Below are positions 4,936 through 42,677 of a stretch of DNA of 64,000 bases, piece after piece. The DNA is from Rubritalea squalenifaciens DSM 18772 (lineage in GTDB: Bacteria; Verrucomicrobiota; Verrucomicrobiia; Verrucomicrobiales; Akkermansiaceae). A program made the position numbers and the translations under genes. The notes under the pieces were generated by a model. It was not told the origin of the DNA, did no database searches, and saw nothing but the letters and a program-made list of their open reading frames with translations. Where the stretch lies: the NCBI RefSeq assembly GCF_900141815.1, contig NZ_FQYR01000005.1, forward strand, positions 124,001 through 188,000, read 5' to 3'. The first letter of the stretch is position 1. Each line of letters opens with the position of its first letter.

Positions 4936-5850
4936 ATGATTTCAGTAAAGAAACTCAGAAGCCGCAAAGGCTTCACAATGATCGAACTGCTTACTTCGGT
5001 TGCTGTTACTGCCATTATCATCAGTGTCTTGATCGGGATGACCCGTATCGCCATGGATGCTTGGAAGGATAGCCGTGACAAGACCAAGGCATCACGTCTG
5101 GCTAAGGAAGCTCTGGAGACCATGTCCAAGGACTTGGAGGGGATTGTGATCCGCTCCGGCAACAACTATGAATGGGCCTTTGTGAAGTCCGAGTCTTCCA
5201 ACAAAGACGGTCCTCTCAATGCCGAAATGTCCAACCCAACTGAGATTCTCTTCTTCACAGGGGCAACAGATCGTTATGATGGTCAAATCGGTACCAAAGA
5301 CGATAAAGGTGGCGACGTGTCCACGGTGGCTTATCGTATTGTTTATCAGGATCAATTGAATCCTGGTGAAAACGAGTTCCCGATCTTTGCTCTCTACAGA
5401 GACTTGGTAAACCCTGATGAGACTTTCAAAAAGTATCTTTCAGAAGAGAACTTGATGTCCGGTGGTATTTACAATTCCAGTGATACCAGCGACCAGGAGA
5501 ACTTCTTGGTGGAAAATATTTTCGACCTAACTATTACATTCATCTTCGAGTATCAGGATAATTCAGGTCAGACCTTCACCAAGCGAGTACCTGTTACGGC
5601 GGACGGCTCTGGTGCCAACCGCTTGAGAATCTTTGGAGATCGTGTGGAAGTAGGTGGTTCCGTTCTTAATGACCCGAGTGGCAATAAGATCACCCGTCTT
5701 GCTGGATGTGAGTTGAGCGTGCTGGTGCTTACAGACAGTGCTCTGACCCTCTTGAAAAATCGTAACTTCTCTGATCCGAGTGAGCTTTCCAAATTCCTCA
5801 ATGAGAATGGATTCCATTACTCCAAGTCAGTGATTCTGCCACGCCCTTAA
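4936..5850 (+). CDS. Prepilin-like protein (third of three)
   Basis: 304 residues with prepilin motif KGFTMIELLTSVAVTAIIIS (cleavage after Gly12, Glu17 at +5). The segment after the helix (DAWKDSRDKTKASRLAKEALETMSKDLEG) is the alpha-helical stalk seen in minor pseudopilins of the GspJ kind and in Verru_Chthon cassette protein C. Its Trp-x3-Arg spacing followed by an acidic helix fits the latter. The C-terminal half contains a large beta-rich domain. It ends the prepilin transcript; a strong terminator follows at 5882-5909. Confidence 0.83.
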   Translation: MISVKKLRSRKGFTMIELLTSVAVTAIIISVLIGMTRIAMDAWKDSRDKTKASRLAKEALETMSKDLEGIVIRSGNNYEWAFVKSESSNKDGPLNAEMSNPTEILFFTGATDRYDGQIGTKDDKGGDVSTVAYRIVYQDQLNPGENEFPIFALYRDLVNPDETFKKYLSEENLMSGGIYNSSDTSDQENFLVENIFDLTITFIFEYQDNSGQTFTKRVPVTADGSGANRLRIFGDRVEVGGSVLNDPSGNKITRLAGCELSVLVLTDSALTLLKNRNFSDPSELSKFLNENGFHYSKSVILPRP

Positions 5851-5881
5851 TCAGGTGTAGGTTTGAGACCTTTTCAAAGAA

Positions 5882-5909
5882 AAGCCGGTCTAACGACCGG
5901 CTTTTTTAT
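5882..5909. terminator. Bidirectional terminator after the prepilin genes
   Basis: Stem AAGCCGGTC / GACCGGCTT (about 5882-5890 and 5895-5903) with a 4-nt loop, followed by TTTTTATTTT on the plus strand. It lies between convergent genes; the minus-strand side has AAAGAAAA upstream, giving a T-rich tail for that strand too. Confidence 0.9.
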
Positions 5910-5937
5910 TTTAGGGGAGAGGCTTATTGCTTGTAGC

Positions 5938-6936
5938 TCATGGATTAGTCTTATCGTGCTCTTCAAGCCACTTCTTGCGGGCTTCCAGGTTTTCTTGCAG
6001 ATCAGAGAGCTTGCTTCGCTCGGTTCTGAATTCCTGGTATTTTCTGCGAATCGTATTCAGGTCGTCTCGCAAGTCGGATACAGCTTCATTGAAAGCCTCC
6101 TCCAGATCATTAGCAGCTTCTTTGCCGACTGCTGATGTGTTGTCTGGTTTACCGGCCGTCATGACCTGGGTGAGTTGGCTTTTGCGGGCTAGCAGTGTTT
6201 CCTCATGGCGCTGAAGTTCTGATTGGATTAATTCCTTGTCCTCTGGTGAGAGATCGCGGTTTTCCAATTTATCCTTCATGCCAGCGATCAAGGATTCATA
6301 GCGTGTGATGGATTTTTTGAGAGCGCCTTCCATGGCGTCTCGTTGTTTTTTATCCATGCTCTTATCCCGTCTATTCTGCTTCCATTCCTCGCTGATTCTC
6401 TCGTTTTCGACATACCAGAAGCTTCCTCCGGAATAGTACTCGTAGCCTCCGTCTGATTCATATTTCTTCACGTCCTCGTCCTGGGTGAAAGAGTTTGAGA
6501 TTTTGACGATCTGCTCCACCCGTGTCTCGGTGAGTTTGTCTAGCGTGTCGATTTCTTCCTTGAGTCCCTCTGAGCCTGTTTTCTTGAGTTCCCGTAGAAC
6601 CTCTGAACGGCGGCTCTGAAGGCGCTGAGCCGACTTGCCTAGCCCTTCCATGGCCTGCATTTTGAGCTGGCTTACCTTGCGGCCTGAAGACTGGGAGTCT
6701 TTGATGCTAGCAAGCTTGTTGACGATTTGGTCGATCTGGGACTCGACTCGCTTATCCAGACGGATGATATCCGCAGCGAGGACTTTAAGGCGTTCTGAGC
6801 GCTCATCAATGCGCTTCTCGAGCGCAGGTATGGATTTTCTGCGGGCTTCCATATCGATAGCTTGTTCGTCCTGTCCAAACGCGAACGGGCTGCAAAACGA
6901 TACGACAATCACAAAGGGGGCTAGAGTTTTCATCAA
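5938..6936 (-). CDS. Secreted coiled-coil protein of unknown function
   Basis: 332 residues with a Sec signal peptide (LAPFVIVVSFCSPFAFGQ). Nearly all of the mature protein is charged, heptad-rich helix with regular Leu/Ile/Val spacing, interrupted around residues 155-180 by a Tyr/Gly-rich patch (GGYEYYSGGSFWYVEN). I see no enzymatic motif, lipobox or C-terminal anchor. A periplasmic scaffold or spacer is the most that can be inferred. It stands alone, convergent to the prepilin genes. Confidence 0.75.
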   Translation of the reverse strand: MMKTLAPFVIVVSFCSPFAFGQDEQAIDMEARRKSIPALEKRIDERSERLKVLAADIIRLDKRVESQIDQIVNKLASIKDSQSSGRKVSQLKMQAMEGLGKSAQRLQSRRSEVLRELKKTGSEGLKEEIDTLDKLTETRVEQIVKISNSFTQDEDVKKYESDGGYEYYSGGSFWYVENERISEEWKQNRRDKSMDKKQRDAMEGALKKSITRYESLIAGMKDKLENRDLSPEDKELIQSELQRHEETLLARKSQLTQVMTAGKPDNTSAVGKEAANDLEEAFNEAVSDLRDDLNTIRRKYQEFRTERSKLSDLQENLEARKKWLEEHDKTNP

Positions 6937-38452: not shown

Positions 38453-39820
38453 TTAGAATTCGCAGGAGCCCGGAGTCCTGGAGAAGGGGATGACGTCCCG
38501 GATGTTTTTCATGCCAGTGACGAACATGAGCATGCGCTCGAAGCCCATCCCGAAGCCTGCATGTGGGCAGGTGCCGTACTTGCGCAGATCCAGGTACCAC
38601 CAGTAGTCCTCATCGGAGAGGCCGTGCTCTTCCATATTCTTTTTGAGAACGTCCATGCGCTCTTCACGCTGGGCACCACCGATGATTTCGCCGATGCCTG
38701 GGACGAGAAGGTCCATGGCGGTGACGGTCTTGCCGTCGTCGTTCGTGCGCATATAGAATGGCTTCACGGATTTCGGATAGTTGTAAACGGTGGTGGGGCT
38801 CTTGAAATGTTCCTCGGTCAGGTAGCGCTCGTGCTCGGACTGCAGGTTTACTCCCCACTCGATCGGGTATTCAAATTTCTTGCCGGACTGGATGAGGATC
38901 TCGACGGCTTCGGTGTAGGAGACACGCTGGAATGAACGCTCGACCACGAACTCCAGTCGCTCACGGAGGGACTTGTCGACAAACTTGCAGAAGATATCGA
39001 GGTCACCTTCGTTGTTCTCAAGGATGTCTTTCACGAGGTATTTGACGAATTCCTCGGCAAGGTCCATGTCTCCCTCAAGGTCACAGAATGCCATCTCTGG
39101 CTCGACCATCCAGAACTCGGCGGCGTGGCGTGAGGTGTGGGAGTTCTCCGCGCGGAATGTCGGGCCGAAGGTATAGATGTTAGAAAGGGCGGTGGCAAAG
39201 GCTTCTCCCTCGAGCTGACCGGAGACGGTGAGGTAGGTCGCCTTGGCGAAGAAGTCTTCCTCTGGTTTGTCGGCCTTGGTATTGGTCGGGTCCTGGGTGG
39301 TGACGCGGAACATTTCACCAGCACCTTCGCAGTCGGATGCCGTAATGATCGGAGTGTGAACCAAGGTGAAGTCACGCTCTTCGAAGAAACGGTGAACTGC
39401 ATGGGCAAGACGTGAGCGCATGCGGAAGACGGCTCCGTAGAGATTCGCGCGTGGGCGTAGATGGGAAATGGAGCGCAGGAACTCAGGAGTATGACCTTTC
39501 TTCTGTAGCGGGTAATCAGATGGAGCCTCGCCGATCAGTTCAAGTTCGGTGACCTGGACTTCCCATTTCTGGCCTTGGCCGGGAGATTCGATCAGCTTTC
39601 CTGTGATGCCGACCGCGGCACCGGTAGACATCTTACCGATGTGCTCGTAACCAGGGATGCCAGCATCCGCAATGCACTGGATGTTCGCCAGGCAGGACCC
39701 GTCGTTCATTTCGAGGAAGGAAAACTCTTTGGAGTCGCGTCTGGTACGCACCCATCCCTTGATGACGATGGAGTCCATCGGGGAGTCGCTACCCAGAGCG
39801 TGCTTGATTAAAGTTCGCAT
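38453..39820 (-). CDS. asnS: Asparaginyl-tRNA synthetase
   Basis: 455 residues, class IIb. The N-terminal OB fold binds the anticodon ([24 protein letters not shown]). Catalytic motif 2 is [24 protein letters not shown] and motif 3 is [15 protein letters not shown] with the ATP-binding Arg. The SGQLEGE segment is typical of AsnRS. The presence of AsnS implies direct Asn-tRNA charging. Single gene with its own terminator. Confidence 0.97.
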
Positions 39821-39899: not shown

Positions 39900-40844
39900 C
39901 TACCGGGTCACTTCAGCTCGTTGAGACGCCGTGAGGTAGGTGAGAGCCTTGGTTTTGTCCGTGCGGGCAAAGGCATTGACTTTGGTAGCTTGTGCTGGGG
40001 TGAGTTCTAGTTTGGTAAAGCGCGTGCCGGCGAGTTGGCGCTTTTGGTCAGAACCTTTGGCCTTCCTGTATTGCTTGCCCAGAGTGGCTACGGGCTTCGC
40101 GGTAATCTTTCTCACCAGATCGAGTCGTTCTCGGGGAACGAAGATTTTATTGGCGCATTCGATGGCGCTGGCTTTTCTCACCAGATCCTGAAGCTTGAGT
40201 TGGGTTTGATCATAGGTCACGAGCGTGACTTCCAGTCCATCGATCCAGCCCGCCTCCGTGGTGATGACTCCGGGTAGGGCACCAAGTTTGCGCTCACCAG
40301 TCCAGAAGCAGTGCATTGCAAAGGCGGCCTTGGCCTGATTCTGTGTGCTGAGTTCTATCCGTAGGAGCTCCAAAGGAGCTGGAATCTTCTGCCCGGATTT
40401 TTGAAGAGCTAAAACCATTCTGTCTGTTAGGCTCTTGAGGTCCCAGATTTTGTCTTTGCGAGGAATGATATCTTTACCCGAGGCGTCGAAGAAGCGGATG
40501 ACTTGGTAGTTCCAGGCAGGCTCGTTGAACTTGCGAAGCATTTCTTTGTCCTTACCTCCGCTGTTATTCTTGATGAGGAGCGGGACAAAGGTGTTCTCAA
40601 TACTATCAACGATGATGGGGTGGGCCATGACCTCATGGCCAAACTTCTTGCAGCCTGCTCATCCGGGGACTTCCTGAAAAAAGGCGAAGATCGGCTTGTT
40701 AGTCTTTTTGGAGAGTGCCGCGGCCTGATCAAAGTCTCTAAGAAAAGCGGCCGGCCCAGTCTCTTGGGCAAAGTTTTTTGATTCGGCGGAGCAAGAGCTC
40801 AGCAAAATACTGAAGCCTAAAAGAAACAGCCATCGTAAACCCAT
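39900..40844 (-). CDS. Thioredoxin-like selenoprotein lipoprotein candidate (in-frame UGA as Sec62)
   Basis: Two open stretches, 40844-40662 and 40658-39900, lie in the same frame and are separated only by TGA at 40661-40659. Read through, they give a 314-residue lipoprotein (lipobox LSSC, Cys18). A thioredoxin-like region follows: PIFAFFQEVPG-U62-AGC65-KKFGHEVMAHPIIVDSIENTFVPLLIKNN. UGA occupies the first Cys of a CxxC motif; I recall related proteins with VPGC there. The downstream stretch has no credible start of its own: the first ATG is 10 codons after the UGA inside the conserved fold. A hairpin with an AGGU loop starts 18 nt after UGA (see 40623-40661). It follows sppA by 42 bp. Confidence that this is one gene is high; Sec insertion needs SelB/SelC, which are not in this window. 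Confidence 0.82.
40623..40661 (-). promoter_or_regulatory. Candidate bacterial SECIS element
   Basis: After UGA (40661-40659) come 18 nt, then a perfect stem GGCCATG (40640-40634) / CATGGCC (40629-40623) closed by the loop AGGU (40633-40630). Bacterial SECIS elements need a stem-loop shortly after UGA with G in the first two loop positions; the GGU core is as in the E. coli fdhF loop, from memory. The distance from UGA to the loop (25 nt) is within the usual range. Confidence 0.72.
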
Positions 40845-40860
40845 ACAGGTACGATGGCTG
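40828..40860 (-). terminator. 11-bp hairpin overlapping the selenoprotein start codon
   Basis: CAGCCATCGTA (40828-40838) pairs with TACGATGGCTG (40850-40860); on the minus strand it is followed by TTTCTTTT. It could terminate or attenuate transcription from sppA. The ATG of the next gene (40844-40842) lies in its loop, so it may also restrict ribosome access. Confidence 0.6.
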
Positions 40861-40886
40861 TGAGATGGTATCTATTCCAGATCTAT

Positions 40887-42677
40887 TTAATTCATCGGAA
40901 GGCTAGGAGCAATTAGGAGCACACGCTGGCTCTGGTAGGCTTCCAGCTTATTGAGGAAGCTTTCAATTTGCTTTGCCTTGTCAGGACCGAGGAGCCCGAC
41001 GGCTTGGCTCTGTAGAAGCTCTTTGCGGAGTTGCTCTACCATGGAATGCTGCGGATGAGCTGCCTGAATGAACTCATGCTTGTCTTCTTTTGGCTTAGCA
41101 AACAGGCCTTCCATAGGGCTCTTAGGCTCGGGGAAGAGAAGGACGTCTATTTCATTCTCACTGTGGAGGGAATCATAGAGGTGGTTGATGGCGTCATTCA
41201 GACCACCGAGTTCATCTACCAGGCCGATAGCAATAGCGTCTTTGCCGCTGTAGACTCGACCACCTGCCAGCTTTTCCAGTTCACCTTTGATGCGGTCACC
41301 GCGGCCATCCATGATGCGCTTCTTGAAAGTCCCGTAGACGTCGAGCATGGACTTGCGGATCAGCTCGGTTTCCTCAGGGGTGTAAGCGCGCGTGATATTC
41401 ATGAGGTCGGCGTGCTTGCCACGCTTGGAGGCGTGCACCGTGATGCCAAGTTTGTCCATGGCATCGCCAAACACAAATTTCATGCCGACTACACCAATCG
41501 AACCAGTGATGGTGCCGGGCTCTGCGAAGATCTTGTCTGCTCCTGCAGAGACGTAGTAACCACCACTAGCTGCGACTGCCCCCATAGAAACAACAAATGG
41601 ACGGCCGGTGGCTTTGAATTCATCAGTCGCTTCCCATAGGACGTCTGAAGCAAGAGCAGATCCCCCTGGTGAGTTCACGCGAAGAACGAGACCTTTGCAG
41701 TTGTCGTTGCGAGTGGCTGCCAGAATCTCCTTTCGGACTGGCGCAACCGATTCGTCAGTGATGTTGCCTTCCAAGACGACGACTGCGATGTAAGGTGATG
41801 TTGCTTTGGCATCACCATCAGAATTGAGCATGAGTTTGACCAGGTCGAAGAAGCCTTTGATCTCCGGGCCATTGGGATCAGGGAGTGAATAGGTGCGGTC
41901 GAATTTCGTTTCCTTGCCGTAATGGGCTCTGACTTTTTTGATGAAGTCAGTGCGGTACTCCAAATGATCCACGAGCTTGAGCTCCAGAGCTTCCTTGGGG
42001 CTGATGACGCCTTTGTTGATGATGTCTTTGACCTTCTCTTTGGAGAGCTTACGTCCCTCTGCCAGTTGGTTGATGATCTGTTCGTAGAGTGAGTCTAGCA
42101 AAGCGGCCTGCTGTTTCTCAGCGTACTCGGATGGTCCAGTCCTGTAGAAGGTTTCTCCAGCGGACTTGAAGTCTCCGATGTGAATGACCTCGACTTTGAC
42201 GCCTACTTTATCCAGCAAGTTTTTGAAGTACATGCTCTCGCCATAGAGGCCTGTGAGCATGACGTTGCCCTCTGGCATGAGGGTCATGTGGTTCGCGGCG
42301 CTGCCTAGCAGTGCGGTGGTGGGAGTCAGATATTCGGTGTAGAGCCAGACGTCTTTTTCTTGTTCTCTGAGTTTCAGGAGAAGACAGCGGATTTCCTGTA
42401 CTTGAGCCAGTGACATAGAGGAATCGTCTACGTCGAAAACGACGCCTTTGATCTCATTGTCGTTGATGGCTGCCTCAAGGCTCTCAGTGATGTCGAAGTG
42501 AGTCAGCGGACGTGATGCGTCGCTCAGGTTGAACAGGCTGGTGCTTGTCTGACCACTTTCAGAGATCGGGCTATCTAGGTCATAGACCGCGACGGTGGGC
42601 TCTGCATACAAGCTAGTGGCTGCCATCAAGGCTGAGGCTGTGAGGATGGATGGAATAAATCGGGACATGTTCGTCAA
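40887..42677 (-). CDS. sppA: Signal peptide peptidase SppA, 67K type
   Basis: 596 residues with a signal peptide or anchor (SILTASALMAATSLYAE) and two S49 protease domains, the long E. coli-type arrangement. The catalytic Lys is in VIHIGDFKSAGETFYR of the first domain and the nucleophile Ser in GAVAASGGYYVSAGADKIFA of the second. LRVNSPGGSALASD is the conserved loop between. It degrades cleaved signal peptides in the membrane. The ATG at 42668 is an alternative start. The redox lipoprotein gene follows after 42 bp. Confidence 0.94.
   Translation of the reverse strand: MTNMSRFIPSILTASALMAATSLYAEPTVAVYDLDSPISESGQTSTSLFNLSDASRPLTHFDITESLEAAINDNEIKGVVFDVDDSSMSLAQVQEIRCLLLKLREQEKDVWLYTEYLTPTTALLGSAANHMTLMPEGNVMLTGLYGESMYFKNLLDKVGVKVEVIHIGDFKSAGETFYRTGPSEYAEKQQAALLDSLYEQIINQLAEGRKLSKEKVKDIINKGVISPKEALELKLVDHLEYRTDFIKKVRAHYGKETKFDRTYSLPDPNGPEIKGFFDLVKLMLNSDGDAKATSPYIAVVVLEGNITDESVAPVRKEILAATRNDNCKGLVLRVNSPGGSALASDVLWEATDEFKATGRPFVVSMGAVAASGGYYVSAGADKIFAEPGTITGSIGVVGMKFVFGDAMDKLGITVHASKRGKHADLMNITRAYTPEETELIRKSMLDVYGTFKKRIMDGRGDRIKGELEKLAGGRVYSGKDAIAIGLVDELGGLNDAINHLYDSLHSENEIDVLLFPEPKSPMEGLFAKPKEDKHEFIQAAHPQHSMVEQLRKELLQSQAVGLLGPDKAKQIESFLNKLEAYQSQRVLLIAPSLPMN

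Follow-up and report, generated by a model that had tools for sequence, protein, structure and literature searches.

Two methionine sulfoxide reductase (Msr) systems and one catalogued protein family lie closest to the locus described here. PilB of Neisseria is an exported protein in which a thioredoxin-like reductase domain is followed by MsrA and MsrB domains. In the MsrA of Clostridium oremlandii, selenocysteine (Sec) itself serves as the nucleophile of the enzyme. The third system is NCBIfam family NF041383, the VPGUxxT thioredoxin-like (seleno)proteins of type 2, which a 2026 review (PMC13188914) presents as hypothetical protein OS_HP5 with the motif VPGU and traces to work on Olavius algarvensis symbionts published by Zhang and Gladyshev in 2007. 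The family and its Sec nature are therefore already on record, and the protein reported here, very probably a selenoprotein, belongs to an established kind whose function is uncharacterised. In the catalogue the name covers just the thioredoxin part; the MsrA-like second half shown here is not mentioned in the review that names the family.

The window, a 64-kb stretch of DNA analysed as a whole, carries one member of this family, with sppA (40887-42677) upstream and asnS (38453-39820) downstream on the same strand. The gene, its Sec codon and its export signal are located as follows:

39900..40844, minus strand: whole selenoprotein gene of family NF041383, 314 amino acids when TGA is read as Sec, ending in the stop codon TAG
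40659..40661, minus strand: UGA codon for the predicted Sec62, within the redox motif VPG-U62-A-G-C65; U or C at this position in 17 of 17 sequences
40791..40844, minus strand: signal peptide and lipobox LLSSC18, recognised by sequence inspection, with Cys18 as the putative lipidation site

Translation of the frame from 40844 to 39900 reveals a sole in-frame TGA at residue 62 of 314, surrounded by the motif FFQEVPG-U-AGC. Under the standard code the same frame yields a 61-residue ORF (40844-40659) and a 242-residue ORF (40628-39900). The earlier note, made from the sequence alone, had described two same-frame open stretches with one TGA at 40661-40659 between them, together with a lipobox and a UxxC motif, and all three are borne out: the frame is split as stated, LLSSC18 can be read at the N-terminus, and U62-A-G-C65 follows EVPG. 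It had also held that the segment after the TGA continues a conserved fold without a proper start. The conserved fold does continue, but an ATG is present at 40628, 11 codons past the TGA, with a Shine-Dalgarno-like GAGGU one base ahead of it. A gene beginning there is unlikely, because its product would have neither the active site nor the opening strands of the thioredoxin domain. Elsewhere in the window, several other TGA-split frames with a U/C motif turn up as mechanical matches.

A signal peptide with a lipobox is what marks a bacterial lipoprotein, and by inspection this N-terminus has both, although the feature is not kept in all relatives; Cys fills the lipobox column in 7 of 16 rows, and the other rows have plain hydrophobic N-termini. 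The product is predicted to be exported and is probably lipid-anchored.

Comparison with profile families places the joined protein firmly within NF041383. Its score is 371.9 bits (cut-off 275), with profile positions 1-286 of 287 covered, and the 242-residue part by itself scores 290.8 bits. The VPGU motif is shared as well, as is the use of either Sec or Cys at this position. The family name gives Thr three residues after Sec, whereas this protein and all 17 aligned members have Cys there. NF041382 (VPGUxxT type 1) and NF041199 (Trx7/PDZ (seleno)protein) share a related thioredoxin half, but their matches end near residues 154 and 92, respectively, and both fall below cut-off. NF041383 is rare: among 387 genomes from the phylum, 10 score over its cut-off, and 8 loci were taken from the genome collection.

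The alignment comprises 17 sequences, namely the window protein and 16 homologues (L024 and L034 are the same protein and count once), with members from Verrucomicrobiota, one record from Pirellulales and two of Bacteroidetes type. L034 comes from a genome in the window's own taxonomic family and L024 from a record titled Verrucomicrobiales, which supports the phylum. Of the 17 sequences, four (the window, L021, L025 and L037) have U at position 62 and the other 13 have C; no other residue occurs there. The earlier note had proposed asking whether homologues carry Cys at the UGA position; among the 16 there are 13 with Cys and three with Sec. In each of the 13 Cys homologues the codon is TGC or TGT and the reading frame is single and uninterrupted, and identity to the 16 homologues amounts to 35-59% ahead of the TGA (residues 28-61) and 40-53% behind it (residues 63-92). 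Since homology spans the TGA and these 13 frames run through unbroken with TGC or TGT, the TGA is not there by chance. Positions 62, 65 and 179 are the only invariant cysteines across the 17 sequences, with Sec standing for Cys at 62 in the UGA forms. In L037/G240, a UGA form whose genome belongs to the same taxonomic family as the window, the motif reads U-G-P-C instead of U-A-G-C, resembling the CGPC of classical thioredoxins.

The genome (4.32 Mb, 96.7% complete) was also searched for selA, selB, selC and selD, as the earlier note had suggested, and holds the full set. selB scores 300.1 bits and selC, the tRNA-Sec gene, 50.8 bits, both over cut-off, and ARAGORN reports a tRNA-SeC with anticodon tca (UCA); selA reaches 506.8 bits and selD 378.3 bits, and the selD frame is interrupted once, by a TGA in SCGGUASK. 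Only 25 of 387 genomes in the phylum carry selB, yet it is present in all four UGA-form genomes, versus 2 of 13 Cys-form genomes (Fisher p 0.006). Those two, L068/G059 and L022/G388, have selB over cut-off yet encode the Cys form of the protein, so the choice between Sec and Cys is not dictated by the machinery alone. selD (L017, G000:C3:915205-916134) is itself a selenoprotein gene, with its TGA at SelD's usual Sec/Cys site and a GGUU-containing hairpin at about +33 behind it. For fdhA, considered as a further selenoprotein, the best match in the genome is below cut-off and has no inner TGA.

These data also bear on the reading that a Cys codon was mutated or misread to TGA, in a pseudogene or through a sequencing error. 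The TGC or TGT of 13 of the 17 sequences does stand one base from TGA, but the TGA recurs in three other genomes, each with selB, the Sec pathway of this genome is complete, and outside this codon the frame is undamaged and conserved, which makes such an origin scarcely credible. Sequencing error was accordingly rejected on the conservation through the TGA and on the three further UGA-bearing selB genomes.

A candidate recoding signal lies a short distance downstream of the codon:

40623..40640, minus strand: SECIS-like hairpin GGCCAUG-AGGU-CAUGGCC, its loop 26-29 nt past the UGA

This hairpin stands directly behind the UGA and presents G/GU in its apical loop, as a SECIS element would, and is a putative binding site for SelB. 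In the window it has a 7-bp stem with the AGGU loop at +26 and a stability of -12.0 kcal/mol with flanks, equalled by 1 of 200 shuffles; a GGUC loop occurs at +19 in L021 and L025 and at +20 in L037. With p values that serve as guides, the loop criterion having been fixed after viewing these sequences, a GGU-loop hairpin with a stem of at least 5 pairs is found in 4 of 4 UGA forms (5 to 8 pairs) and 0 of 13 Cys forms (Fisher p 0.0004), two Cys forms having weak 4-pair hairpins only, and the fractions of codon-synonymous recodings that are as stable are 0.023, 0.019, 0.014 and 0.106 (combined p 0.0004), each single hairpin being modestly unusual. The whole 52 nt from the UGA on, when folded, is not unusual (z -0.3).

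The hairpin also matters for the possibility that the locus makes two products, a 61-residue lipoprotein, for which the TGA would be a true stop, and a protein of 242 residues from ATG 40628. Both ORFs exist mechanically, and the GAGGU would serve the second, but these Shine-Dalgarno-like bases and the ATG itself fall within the SECIS-like hairpin. Conservation moreover spans the TGA, homologues have one frame with Cys, and the later start would cost the domain its first strands along with the active site, so that two separate products are very improbable. The two-gene reading was rejected on the conservation through the TGA and the UGA found in three other selB genomes.

Taken as a reading of the sequence, the UGA is very likely decoded as Sec. 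The earlier note had claimed a genuine selenoprotein and not a 61-residue lipoprotein plus a separate gene. The first part stands on the NF041383 match, the Sec pathway, the restriction of position 62 to U or C and the SECIS-like hairpin, and the second on conservation through the TGA and the one-frame Cys homologues. Automatic annotation would split this gene or give it too late a start, an error that the present reading puts right, and an uncharacterised selenoprotein family gains well-supported UGA members from Verrucomicrobiota.

Structurally, the predicted protein is a fusion of a thioredoxin_7 domain bearing U62xxC65 with a shortened MsrA-like domain:

40386..40754, minus strand: Thioredoxin_7 / DsbD-gamma-like domain, residues 31-153; Pfam PF13899 over cut-off, VIA-align Z 12-15
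39903..40349, minus strand: shortened MsrA-like domain and C-terminal helices, residues 166-314; Pfam PF01625 over cut-off

Pfam searches at E 0.01 find Thioredoxin_7 in 17 of 17 members and a partial PMSR (MsrA) domain in 16. In the AlphaFold model (pLDDT 91.7, pTM 0.84), residues 31-153 resemble DsbD-gamma, DsbH and other exported or DsbD-type thioredoxins at the Z scores given above. The structure closest to the C-terminal half, C-terminal helices included, is the MsrA of C. oremlandii (PDB 4u66, 4lwl, 4lwm), which residues 166-314 match at VIA-align Z 15.7 over 144 residues with an rmsd of 2.4. Because the titles of these PDB entries name U16C and U16S variants, residue 16 of that enzyme is naturally Sec. 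In the present protein, in contrast, Cys179 occupies that site, Sec sits in the thioredoxin half of the fusion, and the substrate loop is missing. The MsrA domain of PilB (3bqe-3bqh) matches residues 168-272 at Z 11-12. Like PilB, the present protein joins an exported thioredoxin-like reductase domain to an MsrA-type domain; unlike PilB, it has no MsrB domain, its MsrA-like domain is shortened, and its thioredoxin domain contains Sec.

At the residue level, the MsrA profile match centres on the CFW nucleophile motif, and hhalign against three MsrA proteins, one of them encoded by this genome, gives E 1.5e-11, pairing C179 with the MsrA nucleophile and E205 with the Glu of H-x-E-V-V. C179-F180-W181, T196, E197, G199 and E205 are invariant in the 17 sequences. 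Relative to the genome's own MsrA, a 17-residue stretch between nucleophile and Glu, which in MsrA carries the substrate-binding Tyr (Tyr82 in E. coli numbering), is absent, and no alignment was obtained for the region of MsrA's other active-site residues. The fold (from the predicted model), the CFW motif and the catalytic Glu of an MsrA are thus found together, but the substrate-Tyr loop is not, and the NCBIfam msrA score reaches 17.4 bits for TIGR00401 against a cut-off of 108.1. As the substrate-Tyr loop is absent, the second half is named MsrA-like rather than MsrA. A full-length MsrA is encoded elsewhere in the genome (L075:3065-3700, G000:C3), with a lipobox-like export leader, FFSTC, and a Cys nucleophile.

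Gene neighbourhoods provide a further view of possible partners. In L025, a UGA form, msrA is the next gene. No msr neighbour occurs within the fetched flanking DNA of the loci other than L025 and L028, the window included. The Rubritalea record L021/L073 also has sppA upstream; apart from this, no gene partner is shared across the other loci. In L028, a Saprospiraceae record with the Cys form, the next genes are msrB, msrA and one for a thioredoxin-like lipoprotein (4986-6498), a candidate methionine-sulfoxide repair operon.

Overall, the product is likely to be a Sec-containing exported reductase. Its MsrA-like half hints at repair of oxidised proteins, and the fusion, combined with the msrA/msrB genes adjoining it in two relatives, offers a hypothesis for the function of the family, namely exported sulfoxide or sulfenate repair. 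A link to a methionine-sulfoxide step or to Msr enzymes is put forward tentatively. The fold and the gene neighbours guide the guess at the substrate; the missing substrate-Tyr stretch, the separate exported MsrA and the mostly absent msr neighbours are points against it.

Two versions of such a reductase can be weighed. The MsrA-like half may be a non-catalytic remnant that binds a partner or substrate, and the selenoprotein would then be a plain exported DsbD-gamma-type disulfide (or sulfenate) reductase, perhaps serving separate MsrA/MsrB. This has close to an even chance: the deleted substrate-Tyr loop, the full, separately exported MsrA, the msrA or msrB/msrA genes adjoining the gene in relatives and the DsbD-gamma- and DsbH-like thioredoxin half all agree with it, but seven residues invariant from C179 to E205 across the 17 sequences would be unusual in a dead domain. 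The other version, a self-contained exported sulfoxide (methionine-sulfoxide-like) reductase, would have Sec in a fused thioredoxin-type recycling domain and a minimal MsrA domain without the usual substrate loop; this is possible but rather unlikely. In that case the protein would differ from Sec-MsrA in holding Sec in the recycling domain and not at the sulfoxide-attacking site.

For a Sec-containing exported reductase with an active MsrA-like half, the following course may be proposed. SelB and tRNA-Sec would decode the UGA at residue 62, helped by the hairpin directly behind it. C179 would attack an oxidised substrate, most likely methionine sulfoxide or else another sulfoxide-like group, and turn into a sulfenate or mixed disulfide. 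The U62 selenol could then attack the oxidised C179, with C65 resolving the intermediate to give a U62-C65 selenenylsulfide, which a putative membrane donor of the DsbD/CcdA kind would re-reduce. Alternatively, the U62/C65 pair may reduce a partner Msr instead of the protein's own C179.

One more element overlaps the beginning of the gene, where no clear Shine-Dalgarno site was seen at the start ATG 40844:

40826..40861, minus strand: strong hairpin holding the gene's start codon, followed by a U-rich run; -21.6 kcal/mol, z -5.5

The ATG lies within this very stable structure, CAGCCAUCGUA...UACGAUGGCUG, and UUUCUUUU comes next. The hairpin may be an sppA terminator that overlaps the start of the next gene, or a translation switch.
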